A DNA stretch of 64,000 bases from Nocardioides halotolerans DSM 19273. GTDB lineage: Bacteria; Actinomycetota; Actinomycetes; Propionibacteriales; Nocardioidaceae. The stretch lies in NCBI RefSeq assembly GCF_000422805.1, contig NZ_KE383923.1, positions 133,296-197,295 on the forward strand, in the 5' to 3' direction. Of this stretch, positions 33,284 to 62,136 are shown one piece after another; position 1 is the first letter of the stretch; every line of letters begins with the position of its first letter. A model generated the notes under the pieces. The model saw only the letters and a program-made list of their open reading frames with translations. It was not told the origin of the DNA and searched no databases. Position numbers and translations under genes: made by a program.

Positions 33284-34381
33284 ATGCAGACCAGAGCCGC
33301 CGTCGTCGAGAGCCAGAGCCAACCGTTCACGATGGCGGACGTCGAGCTCGAGGACCCCCGCGACGACGAGGTGCTGGTGCGGATGGTGGCGACCGGCCTG
33401 TGCCACACCGACATCACGATGGGCAGCTTCCTGCCGCCGGAGATGTTCCCCAACGTCTTCGGCCACGAGGGCGCCGGCGTGGTCGAGCAGGTCGGCGACG
33501 GCGTGCGCGGGCTGGAGCCCGGCGACCACGTCGTGATGAGCTTCCGGTCCTGCCGCGCCTGCGCGAAGTGCCGGGCCGGGCTGGTGGGCTACTGCGACCA
33601 GACCCTCCTGCTCAACTACATGGGCATGCGGATGGACGGCTCGATGCCGATCTCGCGCGACGGCGCCCCGGTGTTCGGCAGCTTCTTCGGCCAGTCCAGC
33701 CTCGCCGCGCACGCGCTGGCGTACGCCGACAACTGCGTGAAGGTCGACCCGAAGCTCGACCTGACCCTGGTCGCGCCGTACGGCTGCGGCTTCCAGACCG
33801 GCGCCGGCACGGTGCTCAACGTGCTCCGGCCCCGCACCGACGACAGCCTGGTCGTCTACGGCGTGGGGGCGGTCGGCCTCGCGGCGATCGCCGCGGCGGT
33901 GGCCGAGGGCGTGGAGTCGATCGTCGCCGTCGACCCCCTGGCGAGCCGGCGCGAGGTCGCGGCCCGGCTCGGGGCGACCGCGGTGGACCCCACCGACACC
34001 GGCGAGCAGACCGTGGTCGACCGGGTGAAGGAGCTGACCGGCGGCGGCGCGGCGTACGCGATCGACACCACCGCGCTCCCGGCGGTCGTCAAGCAGGCGC
34101 AGCAGTCGCTGGCCGCGCGCGGGACGCTGGTCGCGCTGGGCCTCGGGGCCGAGGAGTACGTCCTTGACGCGATCGACCTGCTCCAAGGCGGCAAGCGGGT
34201 GATGTCGTCGATCGAGGGCGACGCCGACCCGCAGGAGATGGTGCCGCGGCTGCTCGCGATGCGCGCCGCCGGCACGTTCCCGATGGACGACCTCGTCACG
34301 ACCTACCCGGCCGACCAGGTCAACCAGGCCGTCTCTGACGTGACCAGTGGCGCGGTCGTCAAGCCCGTGCTGCTGTGGTGA
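33284..34381 (+). CDS. Zinc-dependent alcohol dehydrogenase (aryl/benzyl alcohol dehydrogenase-like)
   Basis: This 365-residue medium-chain dehydrogenase has catalytic zinc ligands in G-L-C-H-T-D and G-H-E-G-A-G. The structural-zinc cysteines are in S-C-R-A-C-A-K-C and Y-C-D-Q. The Rossmann motif is G-V-G-A-V-G-L-A, and acidic V-D-P-L-A-S-R after beta-2 suggests NAD(H). The closest known types are aryl-alcohol and NAD/mycothiol-type class III dehydrogenases. A KstR-like operator upstream suggests induction by steroid or related lipid catabolites (inference). Its 3' end overlaps the GNAT gene on the other strand by 23 bases. Confidence 0.88.
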   Translation: MQTRAAVVESQSQPFTMADVELEDPRDDEVLVRMVATGLCHTDITMGSFLPPEMFPNVFGHEGAGVVEQVGDGVRGLEPGDHVVMSFRSCRACAKCRAGLVGYCDQTLLLNYMGMRMDGSMPISRDGAPVFGSFFGQSSLAAHALAYADNCVKVDPKLDLTLVAPYGCGFQTGAGTVLNVLRPRTDDSLVVYGVGAVGLAAIAAAVAEGVESIVAVDPLASRREVAARLGATAVDPTDTGEQTVVDRVKELTGGGAAYAIDTTALPAVVKQAQQSLAARGTLVALGLGAEEYVLDAIDLLQGGKRVMSSIEGDADPQEMVPRLLAMRAAGTFPMDDLVTTYPADQVNQAVSDVTSGAVVKPVLLW

Positions 34382-35285
34382 CGGTCCGGGTGATCACCAG
34401 GTTGGCCATGTCGACGACCGGCTGGTAGCCGATGGCGGCGTAGATCTTGTTGGACGTCGGGTTGGCCTGGTCGGTGAAGAGGCAGACCCGCGACCCGGCG
34501 TCGCGCAGCAGCCGCGAGACGTGGGCGGTGAGCGCGCTGCCGTAGCCCCGCCCGCGCTGCGGCCCCGGCGTGTAGACCGGACCCACCCGCGCGACGCCGA
34601 AGCTCGGCGCGTTGAAGCCGACCAGGCTGACCGGCGTGCCGAGCATGTCCTCCCACAGCCAGATCCGGCCGCCGGCGATCCGCTCGTCGATGTCGGCCTC
34701 CACGAACACCTCGCCGCCGCCCTCGGGCGCCAGCCGGCCCGCCTGCGCGGCCGCGTCGGTGTGGAACGCGCGGAACCACGCGAGGGCGAGCTCGGCGTCG
34801 CCCGGCAGCGCGACCCGGGCCCGTCCGTCGGGCGCCACCCGCGGCTCCACGAGCCGCTCCAGCACGTGCAGCCGGGTGTGCTCGTGGACGTGCGCGCGGC
34901 GACCGGTGCGCCGGGCCAGCTCGGTTGCGAGCAGCCGGGCCGCGGGCAGCGCGCCGTTGATGGCGCTCACGTCGTCACCCCGCTCGACCAACGCGGCCGC
35001 GACGAGCTCGACGGCGGGCTCGGGCAGCGGCAGCACGAAGAGGGGGTGCGGCGCGAACGACGCGGTCCGCATCACCACCCCGACCGGCTGCCCCGACCCC
35101 TCGTCCACGACGGTCAGCCACCAGCGCGGGTGTGCGGGCGGCTCGTCGGCGCGCTCGACCGCCTCGACGGCGTGCGCCGTGACGGTGGAGACCACCGTGC
35201 TGAGCACCGGGTCACGCTCCAGCAGCCCGCCCGAGCGGAGGAGGAAGGTGCGCGGGTCCTCGGTGAACTCGAGGGCGAACGTCAC
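34359..35285 (-). CDS. GNAT family N-acetyltransferase
   Basis: The 308-residue protein has a C-terminal GNAT domain. Its acetyl-CoA motif is Q-R-G-R-G-Y-G-S, then N-P-T-S-N-K-I-Y-A-A-I-G-Y, typical of the last GNAT helix and strand. The N-terminal half (to about 170) is a degenerate second GNAT-like domain. The substrate is unknown. GTG 35285 overlaps the stop of the GH2 gene (GTGA), so the two are cotranscribed. Confidence 0.85.
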   Translation of the reverse strand: MTFALEFTEDPRTFLLRSGGLLERDPVLSTVVSTVTAHAVEAVERADEPPAHPRWWLTVVDEGSGQPVGVVMRTASFAPHPLFVLPLPEPAVELVAAALVERGDDVSAINGALPAARLLATELARRTGRRAHVHEHTRLHVLERLVEPRVAPDGRARVALPGDAELALAWFRAFHTDAAAQAGRLAPEGGGEVFVEADIDERIAGGRIWLWEDMLGTPVSLVGFNAPSFGVARVGPVYTPGPQRGRGYGSALTAHVSRLLRDAGSRVCLFTDQANPTSNKIYAAIGYQPVVDMANLVITRTVTTAARA

Positions 35286-37186
35286 CCGGGCGACGTTAGT
35301 GGAATCGTCCAGACGGCTTCGCGGGTGATCCCGCTCGCGGTGGTCAGCCGCGCCCGCACGCCCGCGTGCTGCGGCGGACCGAAGCGGTAGGCGTAGGTCA
35401 CGTCGGCGAACCGTCCGAGCAGCGCCTCGACCGAGCGCACCCGGTGGCTGTGCGGCGCGAGCTCCCAGGCCTCCTCGGCCGACTCCCCCGCCGAGCCGTC
35501 GTCGCGGAGCAGCTCGACGAGCAGCGTCGCCTCGTCGGGTTCGCAGCCGTCGTGGGCGACGTGGACGTCGAGCCCGTTGAGGCCCTCGTCGACGAGCCAC
35601 ACCGCGGTCGGCTGCAACGTCGGCGCGAGGGCGAGGGCGGCCGGCTTCGGTCTGCCATCGGCGTCGAGGAGTCCCCAGCCGGCGCCCGGCACCACATCGC
35701 GCAACCACAGCACGATGCCGCCGCCGCAGCCGGAGTCGGGGCGCCGCCACTCGCCGAATACGTCCGCCATCACCTCGCCGCTGACCCGCTGCGCCTGGGG
35801 GCCGTCGGGGTCGACGTCCGCGCCGTAGCGCTGTCGCAGGTAGTGCTCGCGCACGTCGGCGAAGTCCCAGTCGGCGCCGTTGTCGCGAGGCACGCCGCCC
35901 TCGACCACCGGGTCGGTGAGGTTGCTGAAGGCGAGGCACTCGGCGGCGAACCCGACGCGGCTGTGCCGGACGTCGGGCAGGTCGCGCAGGTAGGCGCCGA
36001 CACCGAAGTACTGCCCGATCCCGGTGTCCACCCGGGTCACCGGGTCGCCACCGGACGGCGACGAGTCGACCCAGACCGCGTCGAGACCCGACGCCTCGAC
36101 GACCGGCCGCAGCAGCCCGGCCAGCTCCGCGGCGTACCCGGTCGACGGGCTCACCCCGAACATCGCCGCCTGCTGCTCGTGCTCGGCCGAGCCACAGACC
36201 ACGACCGTCGACGGGTGGCGCTCCAGCCGTCCGCACTGGTCGCGCACCTCGTCGCACGCGGTCGCGGCGAAGGTCTCGTCGGCGAGCGGGTAGTCGAACG
36301 TCGCGAACATCAGGTCCTGCCACACGAGCAGCCCCAGCTCGTCGCAGCGGTCGTGGAAGGCGTCGGACTCGTACGCCGCGACGCCGGGCACGCGGACCAG
36401 GTTGAGCCCGAGGTCGACCGCGGAGTCGAGCGCGTCGAGCGGACCCGGCGTCCAGATCGCGCCGCGACAGAAGATGCGGACCCCGTTGACCCACAGGTCG
36501 AGCGAGTCCTCCGATCGGTTCTCGACGGTGCGGAACCCGACGCGGCCGACGACCTCGCCGTCCACCACCACGTCGTGCAGCTTCGGGGTGCCGTGGGTGT
36601 GGGGCCACCAGAGCTCCGCGTCGGGGATCGCGATCCGGTCCCGTCCGCCGACCTCGACCACCCCCGTCGTGCCCTCGAGCCAGGAGCGGAGCCTGGGAGC
36701 GGGCGGTCCGGTGACGAGGGTGACCGGGCGGTGGGGACCGACCACCGGCGGGCCGGGTGAGAACCCGGGCGCGCGGCCGAGCAGCTGGGTGCGGACCCAG
36801 CGCAACCGGGCGTCCTCGACCAGCATGGTCCGCCAGCGCTGGCGCGGCTTGGCGGGCAGCGCGTCGAGCACCTCGGTGAGCGGGTGCACGACGATGCGCA
36901 CCTCGTGCTCCCCGGGCCCGAGCCCGCTCAGGGCGACCACCTGGCGCTCGAACATCGAGCGGCCCTCGGCCACGGGCATCCCGTCGACGAGCAGCTCCCA
37001 CACGGTTGCGATGCCGTCGACCTCGAGCCTCGCCGGCTCGGCGTCCAGCGTGATCCGGGCGACGTACTCGTGCCTGACCGCGTCGGCGTCCGGCCCCGGC
37101 TCGGGGGTCAGCCGTTCGAACCGGAGCTCCTGCCGCACGTGAGCAGGAAACCACGCTTGCTCCCCCACCGCCGGTTTGCACCGCAT
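35282..37186 (-). CDS. Glycoside hydrolase family 2 protein (beta-mannosidase-like)
   Basis: The 634-residue protein has the GH2 order: jelly-roll sugar-binding domain (about 20-150), immunoglobulin-like domain (about 160-235) and TIM barrel. The acid/base Glu is placed at C-G-S-A-E, where most members have N-E, and the nucleophile Glu at F-A-A-E-C. Both motifs are atypical, so activity or specificity may differ. There is no signal peptide, indicating an intracellular enzyme on short glycosides. ATG 37186 follows GGAGGG. It is coupled to a GNAT gene; no sugar transporter is nearby. Confidence 0.8.
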   Translation of the reverse strand: MRCKPAVGEQAWFPAHVRQELRFERLTPEPGPDADAVRHEYVARITLDAEPARLEVDGIATVWELLVDGMPVAEGRSMFERQVVALSGLGPGEHEVRIVVHPLTEVLDALPAKPRQRWRTMLVEDARLRWVRTQLLGRAPGFSPGPPVVGPHRPVTLVTGPPAPRLRSWLEGTTGVVEVGGRDRIAIPDAELWWPHTHGTPKLHDVVVDGEVVGRVGFRTVENRSEDSLDLWVNGVRIFCRGAIWTPGPLDALDSAVDLGLNLVRVPGVAAYESDAFHDRCDELGLLVWQDLMFATFDYPLADETFAATACDEVRDQCGRLERHPSTVVVCGSAEHEQQAAMFGVSPSTGYAAELAGLLRPVVEASGLDAVWVDSSPSGGDPVTRVDTGIGQYFGVGAYLRDLPDVRHSRVGFAAECLAFSNLTDPVVEGGVPRDNGADWDFADVREHYLRQRYGADVDPDGPQAQRVSGEVMADVFGEWRRPDSGCGGGIVLWLRDVVPGAGWGLLDADGRPKPAALALAPTLQPTAVWLVDEGLNGLDVHVAHDGCEPDEATLLVELLRDDGSAGESAEEAWELAPHSHRVRSVEALLGRFADVTYAYRFGPPQHAGVRARLTTASGITREAVWTIPLTSPG

Positions 37187-37312: not shown

Positions 37313-38269
37313 TCAGCCCACGAGCGAGTCGAGCTCACGCACCGCGGCGTCGTACGCCTCGGCCATCGGGCCGACCACGCCGGCCACGTCGAAGGCGCGC
37401 TGGCGGGCCAGCCGGAACAGCAGCATCTTCGAGCCGCCGACGACGTCGTCGAGCTGGGCGGCGGCCTTCTCGCCGTCCGGACCGAACAGCCAGCGCACGT
37501 GCCCGGCCAGCAGCTCCATCGAGGCGCCGACCATCCGCGGGTTGTGGAACGCGTAGGCGTTGTAGTCGGCGGTGGTGCCCTCGATCAGGGCCGGCAGGTC
37601 CGCCTCGAGCCGGGCGCTGAAGCGGGCGAACGGGTTGTCCGCCGGCCGGCGGGCGAGGTAGCCCGCCAGCACCTCGCGCGCGACGTCGCGCAGCGCGCCG
37701 CCGGTCGGCACCGGCCCCGCGCCGAGGCGGAGCAGCTCGACGTACGTCGGCAGGTGGCCGTCGCCGGAGTAGGTCGCGAAGAGCTTGTCGTAGTCCTCGC
37801 CGGAGAGCTCGTGGTAGCCGGTGTTGTGGAAGTAGCGCAGCACGCGCGCCTCATCGTCGATCGACTCCGCGATGATCGTCGACTTCACGTGCTCGGTGCG
37901 GTACGCCGTCGCGGCCACGTCGGGCAGGTAGAACGAGTCGACCTCGGGCATCACGGTCTGCCCGGCCGCCAGCCGGGTGGCGATCAGCGTCGGGAAGCCG
38001 CGATAGGGCTGCACCTCGTGCAGGTCGATGCCGTAGAGCCGGAAGAGGTCGTCGGGCGTCGGCTTGAAGAACGTCCACTGGTCGAGCTCGAAGTCGGCGG
38101 CGACCGCGCCGCCCATCATCGCGTCGGCCTCGAGACCGGCGGCGTGCACGAGCTCGACGAGGCAGTCGACGTAGCAGTTGGTCTCGGAGTAGGTGCGCTC
38201 GTCGCCGTGGATCGGGTGCCCGACATAGGTCGCCGGGTCGAGGTCGAGGAGGCTGACGCGCTCACCCAC
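37313..38269 (-). CDS. DUF1839 family protein, predicted papain-like acyltransferase
   Basis: The 318-residue protein shows the DUF1839 signature: E-T-N-C32-Y-V-D-C, D-Q-W-T-F-F-K-P, E-V-D111-S-F-Y-L-P-D117 and R-T-E-H127-V-K. The ordered Cys, Asp and His resemble the BtrH N-terminal (papain-like) acyltransferase fold, in which an acyl group moves from a carrier protein to an amine. That relation is my inference from motif order. Being last in an operon with a carrier protein and its ligase, it is a good candidate for the transferase or release enzyme. Its start overlaps the hydrolase gene by eight bases. Confidence 0.8.
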   Translation of the reverse strand: MGERVSLLDLDPATYVGHPIHGDERTYSETNCYVDCLVELVHAAGLEADAMMGGAVAADFELDQWTFFKPTPDDLFRLYGIDLHEVQPYRGFPTLIATRLAAGQTVMPEVDSFYLPDVAATAYRTEHVKSTIIAESIDDEARVLRYFHNTGYHELSGEDYDKLFATYSGDGHLPTYVELLRLGAGPVPTGGALRDVAREVLAGYLARRPADNPFARFSARLEADLPALIEGTTADYNAYAFHNPRMVGASMELLAGHVRWLFGPDGEKAAAQLDDVVGGSKMLLFRLARQRAFDVAGVVGPMAEAYDAAVRELDSLVG

Positions 38270-40004
38270 GGCGGGCGTCCTCGGTGCGGTGGCCGGTCAG
38301 GGATCGGTGGAGGAACATCGTCGCCTTCTCGTAGCCCACGAGCTGCGCGGGTCTGGTCAGCAGGGAGTGGTCGAGGTCGCGCCGGGACTCGAATCCGAAG
38401 CCCCGCCGGCGCCGCATCCACCACAGCAGCGGACGCAGCGCGTAGACCTCGGTGAAGTGCTGCGCGTCGTCGGGGCAGGCGATGATCTCGACCGCGGTGC
38501 CGCGGCTCAGCACTCGCCACGGCACCAGCAGCGGAGCGTGCCAGAGCGCGACCTCGCGGTAGATCCGCCACAGCCCGCCGGCGAGGATCCGCCGCCGGCG
38601 CGCGAGCGCGGCGAACGGCCGGTTGGGCAGCATCGCCGCGCGCCGCCGGTCGGTGTAGACCGGGGATCCCTTGGCCGCGGGGTAGAGGGTCAGCCGCGGG
38701 TTGATCGCGAAGACCGCGTCGACGTGCTCCCACATGGCGACCTCGAACGCCGAGTAGGAGCCCGAGCACAGCCCGACGATGCCGACCTGCGCGCCGTCGC
38801 CCGCGAGCTCGGTGACGACGTGGCGCATGTCGTCGATCCACTCCGGCGCGAAGGCGCGGTCGTCGACCGCCCCCGGCCGGGTCGGGCTGTCGCCCACACC
38901 GCTCTGGTCGATCCGGACGACGCGGTAGCCCAGCGCCGCCCACCGGCGTCCCCACTCGACCCAGCGCCGACCCGGGCCGATGTGGTGCTCGGCCGCCACG
39001 TTGACGAGCACCACCCAGGGCGCCGGCCCGGCCTCGGGGCGCAGGTCTGCCGGCTCGTCCGCGAACCCGACGATGCGGTCGGGTCCGAGCCGGACGAGGC
39101 GCTCGCGGACGGGCACGGAGCCGTCGGGCCCGGAGCCGACCAGCACGGCGTGCTCGCCGTCGGGCGCCTTGACCGGCACCGCGGGCTCGTCCTGGACGCC
39201 GGCGGTCAGCCACCCGACCACCTGCCGCAGGGCGTCCTGGGGCACCACGCTGAGCTCGGGAGGTACGTCGAGCAGCTGGCCCTGGGCGGTCGCCGCACCG
39301 GTCTCGAGCCGCTCCTGCTCGAGACGCGCGACGATCGCCGGGGGCGCCGGCCGGTCGGTGCGGGCCAGCAGCAGCACCCGGTCGGCCAGCTGACGCTCGC
39401 TGGTGAGCTTTCCGAGGTCGACGTCACGCAGCTGTGCGGCGGTCGCGGCGTCGTACTGGAAGCCGGGGGTGTGACGGAGCCCGTCGTCGGGTGCCTCGAG
39501 GGCGGTCTCGCCGAAGCCGTGGAGTGCCTCGCCCTCGCGGAGGAAGGTGCGGCCGGACAGGCACGGGTCCCAGCAGACCAGCGACGAGAAGGGCGCCGAC
39601 GCCGCGGCCTGCACCGCCGCCAGGGTCGCGCCGAGCCGCATGCCGACCGCGGCCACGCCGGGCGCGCCGAGGTCGAGGAGGTACTGCCGGGCCGCCTCGA
39701 TGCTCGCCAGCCAGGCCGGCACCCGGTCGGGGTCGTCCTGCAGTCCGGCGGAGTCGCCCGTGCCGTCGTAGTCGAAGCGCAGCGCGACGATGCCCGCCTC
39801 GGCGAGCTGCTCGGCCAGGCGCCGGAAGGTGCGGTGCGCGGCGCGCCCCTCCTCCCCCATCGGTGGGCACAGGACCGCCCCGCCGCGGGCGAGACCGCCG
39901 GCCGGGCGCGAGACCCAGCCGTGGAGCGGGCGCGACTCCGGCCCGAACCAGACCTGGGTGTGCTCGGGTCCGTCGGCGTCCTGCTCGTGTCCCCCCATGG
40001 GCAT
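38262..40004 (-). CDS. Tandem alpha/beta-hydrolase protein
   Basis: The 580-residue protein has two alpha/beta-hydrolase domains. The first (about 20-270) resembles exosortase A-associated hydrolases; its nucleophile elbow reads G121-M-R-L-G, with Arg instead of Ser, so it is probably inactive or structural. The second (about 325-570) has G411-L-C-S-G, a Cys nucleophile elbow as in dienelactone-hydrolase-like enzymes, with a late D-D-A-Q-H-F that could supply Asp/His. In this operon it may act as a thioesterase or acyltransferase on the carrier-bound product (inference). Confidence 0.78.
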   Translation of the reverse strand: MPMGGHEQDADGPEHTQVWFGPESRPLHGWVSRPAGGLARGGAVLCPPMGEEGRAAHRTFRRLAEQLAEAGIVALRFDYDGTGDSAGLQDDPDRVPAWLASIEAARQYLLDLGAPGVAAVGMRLGATLAAVQAAASAPFSSLVCWDPCLSGRTFLREGEALHGFGETALEAPDDGLRHTPGFQYDAATAAQLRDVDLGKLTSERQLADRVLLLARTDRPAPPAIVARLEQERLETGAATAQGQLLDVPPELSVVPQDALRQVVGWLTAGVQDEPAVPVKAPDGEHAVLVGSGPDGSVPVRERLVRLGPDRIVGFADEPADLRPEAGPAPWVVLVNVAAEHHIGPGRRWVEWGRRWAALGYRVVRIDQSGVGDSPTRPGAVDDRAFAPEWIDDMRHVVTELAGDGAQVGIVGLCSGSYSAFEVAMWEHVDAVFAINPRLTLYPAAKGSPVYTDRRRAAMLPNRPFAALARRRRILAGGLWRIYREVALWHAPLLVPWRVLSRGTAVEIIACPDDAQHFTEVYALRPLLWWMRRRRGFGFESRRDLDHSLLTRPAQLVGYEKATMFLHRSLTGHRTEDARRG

Positions 40005-40013
40005 CGCGGCGCG

Positions 40014-40955
40014 CTAGAGAGCCAGCGCGGACCGCACCTCCTCGGGCCAGGCGTCGAGGTCGGTGCCGTGCACGGCGAACAGGGCCAGCGTGATCCGGTC
40101 GAGGCCGAAGCCGATGCACGCGCTGTGCGCCGGCGTCCCGTCGGCCAGGTGCAGGCCGAAGGTGTGCCCGAAGTGGTCCTCGTGGTAGTTCGACGACCCG
40201 ATAGCGGTCGGCCGCACCTCGGTGAGGTCGACGCACATCTCGTACTTCAGCGCGGACTCGAGCTGGTTGGCGGCGAGCATGCGGCCCACCCGCCCGAAGA
40301 ACGGGTCGTTGGCGGCCTCGGAGCGCACCGGGAGCCCGAGCTCGGTCAGCGCCGCGAGGCCGCGCTGCAGCCAGTCGTCGCGGTGGGCGAGCGACTGCTC
40401 GGGCGTGCCGATCCGGACGAACTCGTAGATCCGGAAGATCTGCATGCGGGCCGGGTCGAGGCTCGGCTCGTGGCGGAAGGACCAGCCGCTGCACTCCTCG
40501 TCGACCCCCTCGGCCGGCACGTCCTGGGCCAGCGTGCCGTAGAGCGGGTGGCACACCGACGACGGCAGCACCACCTCGGCCGGCGTCAGGTGGGCCGTCC
40601 AGTCGCCACCCTGCTCGAGCACCTCGAGCAGCGCGCGGTGCTCCTTGTCGCCGCCGGTGAACACGTCGATCGACCCGACCAGGTCGGGGAACGAGCGGAC
40701 GTAGTCGGTCTTGAGGAACTCCTCGCGCGGCATGATCGGCGGGAACCAGCGCTGCGTCGCGTGGGTGGCGACCCGCTTGCCCATCACGTGGCCCTCGACC
40801 CCGCGCAGCACCCGCTCCCACGCCCAGGAGCGGTGGTGGACGCCGTCGACGGCCGTGAGGTGGATGACGCCGCCGTCGACCAGCGCCTCGCGCAGGTCGT
40901 CGGGCGTGGCGTACGGCGCGGGCGTGCGCTCGACCTGCTCCCCCGCCACCGACAT
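40014..40955 (-). CDS. Amino acid:[carrier protein] ligase (class II aaRS homologue)
   Basis: The 313-residue protein is a truncated class II synthetase core without a tRNA-binding domain, like the ligases of Bradyrhizobium and Agrobacterium that activate glycine or alanine with ATP and load it on a carrier protein. Motif 2 is F-R-H-E-P-S...F-R-I-Y-E and motif 3 is G-F-G-L-D-R. C135, E178 and C280 match in order and spacing the Cys-Glu-Cys zinc site of that family and of archaeal-type SerRS. The start shares a base with the upstream stop (TGATG), and the carrier-protein and PPTase genes lie in the same operon. Confidence 0.88.
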   Translation of the reverse strand: MSVAGEQVERTPAPYATPDDLREALVDGGVIHLTAVDGVHHRSWAWERVLRGVEGHVMGKRVATHATQRWFPPIMPREEFLKTDYVRSFPDLVGSIDVFTGGDKEHRALLEVLEQGGDWTAHLTPAEVVLPSSVCHPLYGTLAQDVPAEGVDEECSGWSFRHEPSLDPARMQIFRIYEFVRIGTPEQSLAHRDDWLQRGLAALTELGLPVRSEAANDPFFGRVGRMLAANQLESALKYEMCVDLTEVRPTAIGSSNYHEDHFGHTFGLHLADGTPAHSACIGFGLDRITLALFAVHGTDLDAWPEEVRSALAL

Positions 40956-42115
40956 CAGGACTCCCGTTGCATGAGCGCGAGCTGGGCGGTGTTGCCGGCG
41001 ATCCGGTCGTTGTTGACCATCACGGCGGCACCGTGCGCGTCGCGCAGGATGCGGCCCAGCGAGTACTCGGAGTCCTCGCGGTACCCCTGGATGCCGCAGA
41101 TCAGCAGGGCCTGGTTGACGACGTCGACCACCTCGGTGGACGCCGAGATCTTCAAGGTGTTGATCGCCACCATGAAGTCGATCGCGCTGGTCGCCTCGGG
41201 GTCGTCCATGATCGAGAGGTAGCGGGTCATCAGGGAGTCGACGGTCGCCGCGAACTCCTGGCGGGTGACCATCAGCGCCGCCAGCCGGGTCGCGCCCGGC
41301 GGCACCGTGCCGGGGTCCTTGCGCGCGGCCTTCTGGACGAAGCGCTGGGCCCGCCACGAGGCCTCCTCGGCCAGGCCGAGCCACAGCGACGACCACAGCA
41401 GGTGGGCGGTCGGGAGCATCGTCTGGGCCGAGACGTCGCCGAACGGGTCGTCGAGGATCAGCATCGCGTCGCCCGAGGCCGTGAGCGTGAAGCCGAGCGA
41501 GCACGTGCCACGGAACCCCATCGTGTCCCAGCCGCTGAGCGGCTCGAGGGTCACCGCGTTGCTCTCGCAGACCGCGAGCACCTGGTCGCTGGGCGGGCTG
41601 TCGGCGTCGCGGCGCGCGGTCGTGAAGATCGCGTCGGCGTACTGCCCGTAGGAGATGACCGGCGCCTGCTTGGTCAGCGTGAACCCGCCGGCGTCGTCGC
41701 GCTCGACGTAGCAGCTGGAGCTGCGGGTGTTGCCGCCGATGCCGATCTCGGTCGTCGCCGACGCGAGCAGCAGCTGGTCGGCGGCGACCCGGCGGGCGTA
41801 GTCGCGCAGCGCCTCCGAGCGGCCGTGCCGGACCAGGCACGCCACCTGGATGTGGTGCATCGCCAGGATCATCGCCGAGGAGGCGCAGTAGCGGCCGACG
41901 GTGCGGACCACCGCGGCCGCGGTGCGCAGGTCGTGGCCGAGGCCGCCGAGGTCGGTCGGCACCAGCGCGCCGAGCAGCCCCTCGGCCCGGAAGGCGTCGA
42001 TGGTCTCCTTCGGGAACCGCGCCTGGACGTCGACGTCCGCTGCGTGGATTGCCGCGGTCTCCCTGCCGATGCGGTGGGCGAGGGCGGTGACCTCCTCGAG
42101 CGACGCCTGGGCCAT
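40955..42115 (-). CDS. Acyl-CoA dehydrogenase homologue of the carrier-protein operon
   Basis: The 386-residue flavoprotein has the acyl-CoA dehydrogenase fold, with A-T-T-E-I-G-I-G-G, W-D-T-M-G-F-R-G-T-C-S and I-C-G-I-Q-G-Y. Where fatty-acyl enzymes have the catalytic Glu in Y-E-G-T, this one has V-N-N-D-R, so a different base or reaction is likely. In context the substrate may be the aminoacyl group on the carrier protein, which could be oxidised or desaturated (inference). It overlaps both neighbours by TGATG junctions. Confidence 0.85.
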   Translation of the reverse strand: MAQASLEEVTALAHRIGRETAAIHAADVDVQARFPKETIDAFRAEGLLGALVPTDLGGLGHDLRTAAAVVRTVGRYCASSAMILAMHHIQVACLVRHGRSEALRDYARRVAADQLLLASATTEIGIGGNTRSSSCYVERDDAGGFTLTKQAPVISYGQYADAIFTTARRDADSPPSDQVLAVCESNAVTLEPLSGWDTMGFRGTCSLGFTLTASGDAMLILDDPFGDVSAQTMLPTAHLLWSSLWLGLAEEASWRAQRFVQKAARKDPGTVPPGATRLAALMVTRQEFAATVDSLMTRYLSIMDDPEATSAIDFMVAINTLKISASTEVVDVVNQALLICGIQGYREDSEYSLGRILRDAHGAAVMVNNDRIAGNTAQLALMQRES

Positions 42116-42387
42116 CACGCGCTCGCCACGGACGCGCCGTCGACCCCGAGCTCGCTCAGGGCGTCGCGGATGTTGGCGATGGAGGCGAAGGTGCTCTTCT
42201 TCAGCATCTGCTGGGGGAACTCCAGGTCCCACTCGTCCTCGCAGGCCAGCATCACCGTGACCGAGGCGTGCGAGGTCATGCCCGCGCCGTACAGGTCGTC
42301 GGTGTCGGACAGGGACGAGACGTCGACACCGAGCCGGGCGTGCTCGGCGAGGAGCCCGCGGATGGTGTCGGTCACTGACTGCGTCAT
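42115..42387 (-). CDS. Acyl/aminoacyl carrier protein
   Basis: This 90-residue acidic four-helix carrier protein has the predicted phosphopantetheine serine S39 in G-A-G-M-T-S-H-A-S. That motif differs from the D-S-L of fatty acid ACP and matches the carrier proteins paired with aa:CP ligases (G-L/M-x-S-x-A-S). Its start overlaps the stop of the PPTase gene (ATGA), and its stop overlaps the dehydrogenase start. It is the expected acceptor of the amino acid activated by the ligase two genes downstream. Confidence 0.88.
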   Translation of the reverse strand: MTQSVTDTIRGLLAEHARLGVDVSSLSDTDDLYGAGMTSHASVTVMLACEDEWDLEFPQQMLKKSTFASIANIRDALSELGVDGASVASA

Positions 42388-42827
42388 GGTGCGTCTCTCG
42401 GTTCGGTGGTGGGTGCCGGGGTGGGTTCGGTGGGCTGGGCTGGATCGGTGAGGGCGACGGCGACCGCCAGCGCGCAGTCGCCGGTGTGGCTCAGGCTGAC
42501 GTCGATCGGGCCGATGCCCGCGGCCGCGGCCAGGGTGGCCGCCAGGCCGGAGAGGTGGACGACGGGCCGGCCGGCGGCGGTGGCGATCTCGACCTCGCGC
42601 GGGTCGACCCCGTCAGCGGTGCCGATCACCTTGAGCACCGCCTCCTTCGCGGCGAAGCGGGCCGCCAGCGAGGCGGCGCCGCCGAGGCGGCCGGCCTCCT
42701 GCTCGACGGGGGTGTAGACGCGGTCGAGGTAGCGGTCGCCGAAGTCGCGGATCGCGTCCGTGACGTCGTCGATCCGCTGCAGGTCACACCCCGTCCGAGC
42801 TCGGGGCGCAGTGATGGGTGCCCGCAT
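42384..42827 (-). CDS. Holo-ACP synthase-type phosphopantetheinyl transferase
   Basis: The protein is about 147 residues from ATG 42827, with a possible in-frame TTG four codons upstream. It has the AcpS motifs: G-C-D-L-Q-R-I near the N-terminus (metal-binding Asp), A-R-F-A-A-K-E-A-V-L-K and a C-terminal S-L-S-H-T-G. It has a Pro/Thr-rich tail. As first gene of the operon and coupled to the carrier protein, it is probably a dedicated enzyme adding phosphopantetheine to S39 of that protein. The cell will have a separate housekeeping AcpS elsewhere (inference). Confidence 0.86.
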   Translation of the reverse strand: MRAPITAPRARTGCDLQRIDDVTDAIRDFGDRYLDRVYTPVEQEAGRLGGAASLAARFAAKEAVLKVIGTADGVDPREVEIATAAGRPVVHLSGLAATLAAAAGIGPIDVSLSHTGDCALAVAVALTDPAQPTEPTPAPTTEPRDAP

Positions 42828-45694: not shown

Positions 45695-45946
45695 ATGCCG
45701 CTGTTCATGGACGTGCACGAGAAGGTCGAGGGGCTCACCGCCGAGGCGGTGGCGGGCGCGCACAAGGCCGACCTCGAGACCCAGGGCGCCTACGGCGTCA
45801 ACTACAAGCAGTACTGGTTCGACGAGGCGTCGGGGAAGGTGTTCTGCCTGGTCGAGGCACCCGACGCCGAGACCGCGACCCGGGTGCACCGCGAGGCGCA
45901 CGGTCTGGTCGCCGACGCCGTGATCCCGGTCCAGGAAGGCCACTGA
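45695..45946 (+). CDS. DUF4242 (SCO4226-like nickel-binding) protein, paralogue 1
   Basis: This 83-residue ferredoxin-fold protein fits DUF4242, whose Streptomyces member SCO4226 binds nickel. Features are P-L-F-M-D-V-H, E-T-Q-G-x-Y-G-V-N-Y, G-K-V-F-C-L-V and A-P-D-A-E-T-A-x-x-V-H-R-E-A-H-G. ATG 45695 has GAGAAGGG upstream, after a small GTGGTG/CACCAC hairpin. It is tail-to-tail with a signalling ATPase gene across 39 bases. A paralogue at 61885-62136 is 56 of 83 residues identical. Confidence 0.85.
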   Translation: MPLFMDVHEKVEGLTAEAVAGAHKADLETQGAYGVNYKQYWFDEASGKVFCLVEAPDAETATRVHREAHGLVADAVIPVQEGH

Positions 45947-61354: not shown

Positions 61355-61888
61355 TCATGCCACCAGGTCGCCCCGGCTCGCCCCGCCGGGGTGGAGCCGG
61401 TCGCGCAGCCAGGCCTGGTCGTGCGGGGCGAGCTGCCCCATCGCGACACCATGCAGGACGCCGAACGCGCGCAGCCGCGCCACCTCGGCGCCGTCCCAGT
61501 CCACGAGCGCGGCCGCCGCCCCCGGAGCGGTCCAGCGCGTGGCCGACGCGAGCGCCTCGCACGCGGTCTGCTCGGCCTCAGTGCCGCGGGCGGCGATCCG
61601 CCCCGCGATCCGCTCCAGCAGCCCGCTCAGCTCGGCCGCCACATCCTCGGGCCGGCGGTCGGCGACGGCCGCGAGCGGCGTCCGCGCCTGCGCCCGCCAG
61701 GTCGCGAGCCGCTGCGCCCACCGAAGCCACACCGGCGTCGCCGGGCGCGAGGCCCGGTGCCTGGCACGGCGTTCGGCCTTCGCCTCGCGCCGCACGCGGT
61801 CGGCGAGGTGGCGCTCCGCCGCCGCCGCGAGCCGCGCCTGGTCGGTCGCCCGCACGACGTCCCGGTGTAGTGAGCTCATGCTGCTCAC
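61355..61888 (-). CDS. Hypothetical Arg/Ala-rich helical protein
   Basis: The 177-residue soluble protein has a basic N-terminal half (V-R-R-E-A-K-A-E-R-R-A-R-H-R-A) predicted helical, and a mixed C-terminal half ending in L-A-P-H-D-Q-A-W-L-R-D-R-L. I recognise no family. The GTG start at 61888 overlaps the DUF4242 stop (GTGA), so they are coupled; ATG 61879 is an alternative. Followed 118 bases later by the BTAD regulator. Confidence 0.65.
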   Translation of the reverse strand: MSSMSSLHRDVVRATDQARLAAAAERHLADRVRREAKAERRARHRASRPATPVWLRWAQRLATWRAQARTPLAAVADRRPEDVAAELSGLLERIAGRIAARGTEAEQTACEALASATRWTAPGAAAALVDWDGAEVARLRAFGVLHGVAMGQLAPHDQAWLRDRLHPGGASRGDLVA

Positions 61889-62136
61889 GTGCCTTCGATG
61901 ACGGCGTAGATCTCGTCGGCAACGAGACCGTGCGCCTCGCGGTGCACCGTCGTGGCGGTCTCGGCGTCCGGCGCGTCGACCAGGCAGAAGATCTTGCCCG
62001 CCGCCTCGTCCACCCAGTACCGCAGGTAGTTGACGCCGTACTTCCCCTGCGTCTCGACGTCGGCCTGGTGGGCCGCCGCGACGTCGGCGGCCGATACGCC
62101 GCCCTCGAGGGTGTGAGCGTCCATGAAGAGGGTCAT
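61885..62136 (-). CDS. DUF4242 (SCO4226-like nickel-binding) protein, paralogue 2
   Basis: This 83-residue protein has the same motifs as the paralogue at 45695-45946: T-L-F-M-D-A-H, E-T-Q-G-K-Y-G-V-N-Y, K-I-F-C-L-V and A-P-D-A-E-T-A-T-x-V-H-R-E-A-H-G. The ATG at 62136 follows GGAAGGA. It leads a three-gene unit with a helical protein and a BTAD regulator, and is divergent from a secreted protein gene. A signalling or metal-sensing role is possible. Confidence 0.85.
   Translation of the reverse strand: MTLFMDAHTLEGGVSAADVAAAHQADVETQGKYGVNYLRYWVDEAAGKIFCLVDAPDAETATTVHREAHGLVADEIYAVIEGT

Follow-up and report, generated by a model that had tools for sequence, protein, structure and literature searches.

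The window, a stretch of 64,000 nucleotides from the genome of Nocardioides halotolerans DSM 19273 (contig NZ_KE383923.1), contains a cassette of genes that includes a carrier protein (CP) and an amino acid:[carrier protein] ligase. Also encoded in this cassette is a DUF1839 protein (37313-38269, minus strand; PF08893, E 8e-83), a papain-like, CcbD-type protein that, as judged from its modelled structure, most likely acts as CcbD does, with its catalytic triad rearranged, and is not itself a CcbD. It is proposed that the cassette specifies a pathway, free of nonribosomal peptide synthetases (NRPS), that amidates an amine with an amino acid, the acceptor most likely being an amino sugar or glycan precursor in the cytosol; we give this proposal about an even chance. 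For the orphan amino acid:[carrier protein] ligases, the cassette supplies a candidate enzyme on the acceptor side (DUF1839), a tied glycosidase and an odd flavoenzyme, which would provide these ligases with a testable role. Should a glycan amine be the acceptor, the pathway would represent an unrecognised amino-acid charging of sugars in several phyla, including plant-associated rhizobia.

The evidence for a CcbD-like function comes first from the fold. A sequence search of the PDB with DUF1839 returned no usable match, the single row being a ribosomal protein (E 0.3), and a comparison of folds was therefore needed. The AF2 (AlphaFold2) model of the protein has a pLDDT of 95.2 and was built from an alignment of 58 sequences, comprising the window protein and 57 of 61 homologues (three near-copies and one fragment were excluded). 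Comparison of this model with solved structures by VIA-align places CcbD first (Z 19.8, rmsd 3.5 over 287 residues), followed by AziU3 (17.8) and CtaG (17.2), with the next row at 7.4. The three matches span 268-287 residues at identities of 10-18%, and the fold they share joins a papain-like part to a helical domain. CcbD is the celesticetin enzyme that condenses an amino acid, delivered by a CP, with an amino sugar. Foldseek finds the same three proteins in a different order, with E values of 4e-9 for AziU3, 1e-6 for CcbD and 2e-6 for CtaG before a step to 0.02. AziU3 is presumably a protein of the azinomycin pathway. In the literature searched, which covered few subscription journals, no publication connecting DUF1839 with CcbD was found.

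The conserved residues of DUF1839 are also suggestive of an acyl-transfer enzyme of this type. Cys32 and His148 are invariant in the alignment (58/58), and position 131 is occupied by Thr in 53 sequences and by Ser in 5. Basic residues are conserved in the C-terminal part as well, namely K281 and R289 (57/58 each) and R/K291 (54/58). A review describes for CcbD a ping-pong reaction in which a CP-tethered proline is passed to the catalytic Cys and then on to the thio-octose amino group, with arginines at positions 312-324 binding the CP (PMC12945683). An earlier reading of the window, made without database searches (the sequence-only reading), ended the pathway with "transfer or release" of the aminoacyl group. 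Transfer gains structural support from the CcbD fold of DUF1839, while the chemistry of this step stays predicted.

The linkage of DUF1839 to the other genes was probed across genomes. Relatives of the ligase were collected by searching genomes, one per species, with an alignment of 7 ligase sequences, which confirmed at least 576; the best 80 of these define the locus set (L017-L096), a sample that is biased to close relatives, and the window serves as the 81st locus. Gene presence was scored by iterated profiles over all open frames, families were assigned with Pfam and NCBIfam, and matches to solved structures were taken from the PDB. The genes scored alongside the ligase, CP and DUF1839 were those for a flavoenzyme of the acyl-CoA dehydrogenase (ACAD) fold, a tandem alpha/beta-hydrolase (ABH), a glycosidase of glycoside hydrolase family 2 (GH2), a phosphopantetheinyl transferase (PPTase) and a GNAT acetyltransferase. 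The ligase is present in all 81 loci, CP in 80, ACAD in 73, DUF1839 in 62, ABH in 59, GH2 in 54, PPTase in 25 and GNAT in 2. For 57 of the 80 loci, the flanks exceed 7 kb both before and after the ligase frame (the well-flanked set), and the corresponding counts there are 57 for CP, 52 for ACAD, 46 for ABH, 41 each for DUF1839 and GH2, and 21 for PPTase. The cassette as conserved comprises CP, ACAD, ligase, DUF1839, GH2 and ABH, all six of which lie within the fetched flanks in 33/57 loci. The sequence-only reading treated six genes, from PPTase to DUF1839, as a self-contained unit. This unit was rejected, since GH2 tracks DUF1839 and belongs to the core while PPTase does not, the latter being peripheral with a copy near the ligase in just 24/80 loci.

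Within the cassette, DUF1839 is tightly paired with GH2. The two genes are concordant in 57/57 well-flanked loci, with both present in 41 and both absent in 16 (Fisher 1.7e-14, kinship uncorrected). Outside this set, DUF1839 occurs without GH2 in 8 loci; in seven of these less than 1 kb of contig follows DUF1839, and in the eighth (L057) DUF1839 is a 259-residue fragment. On the ligase tree, where DUF1839 changes 8 times, GH2 tracked DUF1839 in 7/7 independent pairs (p 0.016), unlike ABH and PPTase (median p 1). The 16 local absences of DUF1839 were considered as true losses, a reading that was rejected because DUF1839 lies elsewhere in 8/16 of those genomes. Six of the displaced copies are in Rhodococcus, approximately 14 kb from the ligase, and another is in a member of the Roseiarcaceae, in each case on a contig whose length equals that of the ligase contig; GH2 adjoins all seven, and the eighth match, in Mycobacterium, is truncated. 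The Roseiarcaceae cassette is split, with CP and ligase at L066 and ABH-ACAD-DUF1839-GH2 about 32 kb off at L118. Of ten DUF1839 places fetched beyond the locus set, 9 have GH2 adjoining. The pairing holds, and mere distance accounts for part of the changes on the tree. Correlations between cassette-protein distances (0.72-0.87 for the five long proteins) were not used, as they have no species-tree control.

The gene order CP-ACAD-ligase-DUF1839-GH2 is seen again in members of the Actinomycetota, Pseudomonadota, Planctomycetota and Myxococcota, and is kept as a five-gene set on Rhizobium/Shinella plasmids (n=3, PLSDB annotation). At loci from Mycobacterium and Williamsia, GH2-DUF1839-CP and ACAD-ligase-ABH form two divergent arms. 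The sequence-only reading asked for a comparison of the genes across genomes; this was run, and the carrier-protein pathway is co-conserved across phyla. In a sample of 396 genomes of the phylum, DUF1839 occurs in 3, all with the ligase, which itself occurs in 10 at E <= 0.001 (4 over the cut-off). A sample of 190 genomes from the alphaproteobacterial class of G405 contains DUF1839 in 2, both with the ligase, and the ligase in 10 (5 over the cut-off). G000 and G405 are seeds, and the ligase is present in 3/3 of the non-seed genomes carrying DUF1839. The ligase is also found without DUF1839 in both samples. Two loci (L021 and L053) are contigs of metagenome-assembled genomes titled Klebsiella pneumoniae that group in the ligase tree with a Myxococcota-assigned contig, and their labels are probably wrong. 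In G139, an actinobacterial genome, a further ligase-CP-PPTase set lies roughly 7 kb away from the DUF1839 cassette (L121, 4147-5889 and 12773-18770).

The glycosidase tied to DUF1839 offers insight into the possible acceptor. In the window, GH2 extends from 35282 to ~37138 on the minus strand and is assigned to the beta-mannosidase group (PDB 5n6u, E 2e-19). An alignment of 53 sequences from 54 hits shows that both catalytic Glu residues are kept (52/53 and 53/53). Just before the acid/base, 45 sequences have Ser, 4 have Asn, 3 have Ala (the window included) and 1 has Thr, a departure from the NE motif. The position of the mannosidase Trp is occupied by G/P/V/A/T/S in 52/53, so that Trp is missing in at least 52/53. 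According to PMC12243196, Ser before the acid/base fits C2 amination in glucosaminidases, and the combination of SE with Gly in GH2_14 is proposed to admit substituted substrates. The window enzyme is 618-657 residues long, its Nocardioides relatives at L017 and L018 measure 621 and 669, and most others have approximately 790-870.

The surroundings of the cassette also point to glycans. Initiating sugar transferases (PF02397) were counted in intervals of 20.9 kb at 29 of the 61 loci with DUF1839, and 6/29 loci (L031, L059, L072, L074, L077 and L082) have one nearby, compared with 0.33 expected from a background of 93 matches in the 29 cassette genomes (175.5 Mb; Poisson 1.3e-6). GT4-like genes are found in 27/81 loci (a raw count, without background), and GumC and an O-antigen ligase are near the Shinella copy. 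These neighbours argue against the strongest alternative, in which the product is a small diffusible molecule, such as a lincosamide- or mycothiol-like pseudo-glycoside, and the enzymes act on a free sugar or polyamine. Likewise, no exporter was recognised beyond an ABC ATPase in 8 loci when recurrent neighbour clusters were inspected by eye, with gene calls incomplete. A small-molecule product would fit the origin of CcbD, which comes from a small-molecule pathway, and presumably also that of CtaG and AziU3, which we counted as small-molecule pathway proteins. It would also fit the window cassette, which by eye has no polysaccharide neighbours, and a cassette on a conjugative-typed Rhizobium leguminosarum plasmid that has annotated transposases on both sides (L122, 9646-15460). 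Plasmid records with a DUF1839 match number 59, all with less than 60% identity to the query. On balance a small-molecule product is unlikely but deserves attention, and a glycan-directed amidation is preferred.

The flavoenzyme (40955-42115, minus strand; PF02771) bears on a second alternative. Its AF2 model has a pLDDT of 96.3, and fold ranking, in which Z differences below 1 are treated as ties, places dehydrogenases at 41-42, ColB1 at 41.2, DszC at 39.7 and KijD3, which like DnmZ is an N-oxygenase of the ACAD fold, at 38.7. A sequence-profile search gives E 3e-22 for KijD3 vs 9e-28 for the best dehydrogenase. In an alignment of 59 sequences (the window and 58 of 72 homologues, near-copies and fragments excluded), the classical catalytic Glu is missing at both positions in 59/59, one position being V/I (40/19) and the other S/A/T/C (40/16/2/1). 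We take these positions, mapped by alignment, to be those of E376 in MCAD and E254 in IVD. The plain dehydrogenase reading was rejected on this test (0/59 with Glu). By sequence, the closest PDB entry is 7p98, whose title is cyclohex-1-ene-1-carboxyl-CoA dehydrogenase and which has Asn and Thr at the aligned places, as judged by eye; loss of Glu alone consequently does not exclude another kind of dehydrogenase. Invariant residues are His87, His238, Trp241, Trp245, Asn369 and Arg371. His87 was considered as an oxygenase marker and dropped, because butyryl-CoA dehydrogenase has an aligned His (by eye).

The sequence-only reading envisaged a redox change of the aminoacyl group by an acyl-CoA dehydrogenase homologue, and in its strict form this gives a pathway in which the aminoacyl-CP is truly desaturated, the hydrolase frees the product and DUF1839 is an accessory. 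The fold ranking is compatible with such a pathway, particularly as ColB1 is titled for the dehydrogenation of an assembly-line-tethered cysteine, as are a weak NCBIfam match of ACAD to prolyl-PCP dehydrogenase and the tendency of ABH to accompany ACAD rather than DUF1839. The residues suggest otherwise, since a classical acyl-CoA-dehydrogenase step is unsupported without either Glu, and the known ligases load Gly or Ala, the former of which cannot be desaturated alpha,beta because a glycyl group has no beta-carbon. An accessory role for DUF1839 is also at odds with its presence in 41/57 loci with an intact Cys-His site. Desaturation in the classical form is doubtful, and Calpha-N oxidation or N-oxygenation is favoured; the pathway built on desaturation is improbable. 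More improbable still is that DUF1839 acts at the cell wall as a papain-like hydrolase of glycans or peptides, a role for which PMC10318531 provides a papain-like fold, a C-T/S-H triad that is conserved here and a suggestion of cell-wall processing from genomic context, and against which stand the whole-length matches to CcbD, AziU3 and CtaG (peptidases reach Z <=7.0 over the first 186 residues), the lack of a signal peptide on DUF1839 by eye and the fixed linkage to a CP loader.

Pfam and NCBIfam confirm the six genes and families of the sequence-only reading in the order given there, all on the minus strand. An AcpS-type PPTase (42384-42827; PF01648 E 2e-10; TIGR00556 51 bits, cut-off 45) is followed by CP (42115-42387; NF005480 93 bits, cut-off 72), ACAD, the ligase (40014-40955; NF005479 368.7 bits, cut-off 357), ABH (38262-40004) and DUF1839. 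These genes had been described as overlapping, which is true of four of the five junctions (4 nt as ATGA, 1 nt and 1 nt, then 8 nt between ABH and DUF1839) and not of the ligase and ABH, which are separated by a 9-nt gap. GH2 and a GNAT acetyltransferase, a lineage-specific accessory (34359-35285; PF08445 E 9e-8), continue downstream of DUF1839 on the same strand and overlap each other by 4 nt. As GH2 may start at 37138, 37255 or 37298, its spacing from DUF1839 is anywhere from 14 to 174 nt, and a single transcript of eight genes is not established because this gap depends on the start chosen. A simple scan for promoters and terminators gave nothing above chance. The genome has one copy of DUF1839. 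Elsewhere in the window, a pair of 83-residue paralogues, which we take to be of the DUF4242 type, lies at 45695-45946 (plus strand) and 61885-62136 (minus strand); they start PLFMDVH and TLFMDAH, and each is near a large regulator-like gene.

The description of amino acid:[carrier protein] ligases reportedly dates from 2010. The window ligase has 313 residues that match residues 312-503 of the 518-residue seryl-tRNA synthetase (SerRS) model, and from its sequence it is a homologue of the SerRS catalytic core without the tRNA-binding domain. Its nearest relative among the matches listed is from N. flavescens (Nocardioides), at 85% identity, and it matches the solved Bradyrhizobium ligase (PDB 4h2w/3mey) with E 6e-69/4e-68. 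C135, E178 and C280 are invariant in 7 sequences, and this Cys-Glu-Cys set presumably provides the Zn ligands. The phosphopantetheine site of CP, predicted earlier as S39, is Ser39 in 80/80 aligned sequences, the window included. The absence of NRPS modules noted in the sequence-only reading extends to the whole genome, in which no Condensation domain was found (PF00668, E <= 0.001). A carrier-protein pathway that has its own priming and loading enzymes and is free of NRPS condensation is supported by the family assignments. Characterised relatives load Gly or Ala, and a 2022 review gives the role of these ligases as unknown (PMC9437257).

In the tandem ABH, an alignment of 57 sequences from 59 hits reveals Arg at the nucleophile site of the N-terminal half (50/57) and Cys at that of the C-terminal half (56/57), the latter accompanied by Asp (53/57) and His (52/57). 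The same residues were found in the paired hydrolases of exosortase-A loci, with Arg in hydrolase 2 and Cys in hydrolase 1 in 10/10 cases each (ten of 60 sampled genomes, TIGR03101 over its cut-off). ABH itself falls below the cut-offs of TIGR03100 (52.7/168 bits) and TIGR03101 (85.2/203 bits). In sequence, ABH looks like a fused form of the hydrolase pair known from exopolysaccharide (EPS) loci. One exosortase-A EPS locus (L109, 6343-11579) encodes an acyl carrier protein (ACP), hydrolase 2 (Arg), hydrolase 1 (Cys), an Asn-synthase-like protein and an AMP ligase, and none of nine proteins scanned there matched the models of the SerRS-type ligase or ACAD.

Taken together, these observations suggest the following mechanism. 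First, CP would be primed at Ser39 by the PPTase or, in genomes with no linked PPTase, by the resident AcpS. Next, the ligase would adenylate an amino acid of small size, such as the Gly or Ala used by relatives, and load it onto the phosphopantetheine, where Calpha-N oxidation or N-oxygenation by the flavoenzyme may alter the aminoacyl group. Cys32 of DUF1839, aided by His148 and Thr131, would then accept the acyl group from CP, and attack by the amine would yield the amide, as in CcbD. Finally, GH2, with an opened C2/C3 pocket, may cleave or transfer the modified sugar in the cytosol, and the Cys half of ABH may be a second acyl transferase or an editing thioesterase. The fold, active-site residues and linkage were computed, and from these we infer the substrates, order of steps and chemistry. 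A broader proposal is that DUF1839 founds a widespread, CcbD-like branch of amide synthetases with a rearranged triad that, supplied by SerRS-type ligases and a flavin enzyme and together with its near-obligate partner GH2, carries out a Dlt-like, amide-forming aminoacylation of glycans in four phyla, placing an oxidised amino acid on the amino sugars of cytosolic precursors; this extension is tentative, and we lean against it.

Several observations weigh against the proposed amidation. The order of the DUF1839 triad is Cys32-Thr/Ser131-His148 and not the Cys-His-Glu of CcbD, and the title of the first Foldseek match, AziU3, states no function, so that the acceptor cannot be read from the fold by itself. 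ABH has no association with DUF1839 (33/8/13/3, Fisher p 1; 57 loci) and is associated with ACAD instead (p 0.004), and thus may serve a different branch. At one further place (L119), DUF1839 has no GH2 in the 9 kb downstream. The window GH2 has Ala rather than Ser before the acid/base and is ~180 residues shorter than most, and its family is considered cytosolic from N-termini that look non-secreted, a judgement made by eye only. Additionally, 23/29 tested loci have no PF02397-type gene within 10 kb, and the neighbours of the window cassette look housekeeping-like by eye.

Several known systems share features with the cassette. The Bradyrhizobium and Agrobacterium ligases (Bll0957; 3mey, 4h2w) fall into one family with the window ligase, as both the curated model and the PDB match indicate, and a Bradyrhizobium locus (L093, ligase vs 4h2w E 2e-95) has the order CP-ACAD-ligase-DUF1839-GH2; studies of those ligases end at loading. 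The exosortase-A EPS module (TIGR03098 ligase, ACP, TIGR03101/03100) shares AMP-forming activation, a stand-alone CP and an Arg/Cys hydrolase pair, and differs in that its hydrolases are separate genes. In Dlt D-alanylation, a stand-alone ligase and CP likewise supply an amino acid to cell-envelope polymers; the products there are esters on teichoic acid made by membrane proteins, and we know of no papain-like amide synthetase in Dlt.

A precedent in print is a 2010 prediction, PMC2922099, which proposes amide ligation to a cell-surface amino sugar and assigns this ligation to the product of the ORF next to the ligase gene. From gene order, that ORF (Atu2574) is probably a DUF1839 protein. The statement in the sequence-only reading that the downstream pathway is not established is true for experiment, and a specific prediction was already printed there. 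Both schemes include a CP, a redox enzyme, a conserved ORF by the ligase, a glycosidase with glycan genes and the same end reaction; the earlier one, in the part available, relies on gene neighbourhoods only, without a fold for the amide enzyme, a residue test for the redox enzyme or a count of pairing. New here are the CcbD fold, the tight pairing with GH2, the missing Glu and the Arg/Cys hydrolase pair common with exosortase-A loci. The lincosamide condensing enzymes CcbD and LmbD resemble DUF1839 in whole-length fold, in the catalytic Cys and His and in the C-terminal basic residues, a likeness from which a CP-bound donor is proposed for DUF1839. The donor is loaded by an NRPS-type A domain in CcbD and LmbD, in contrast to the SerRS-type ligase of the cassette.

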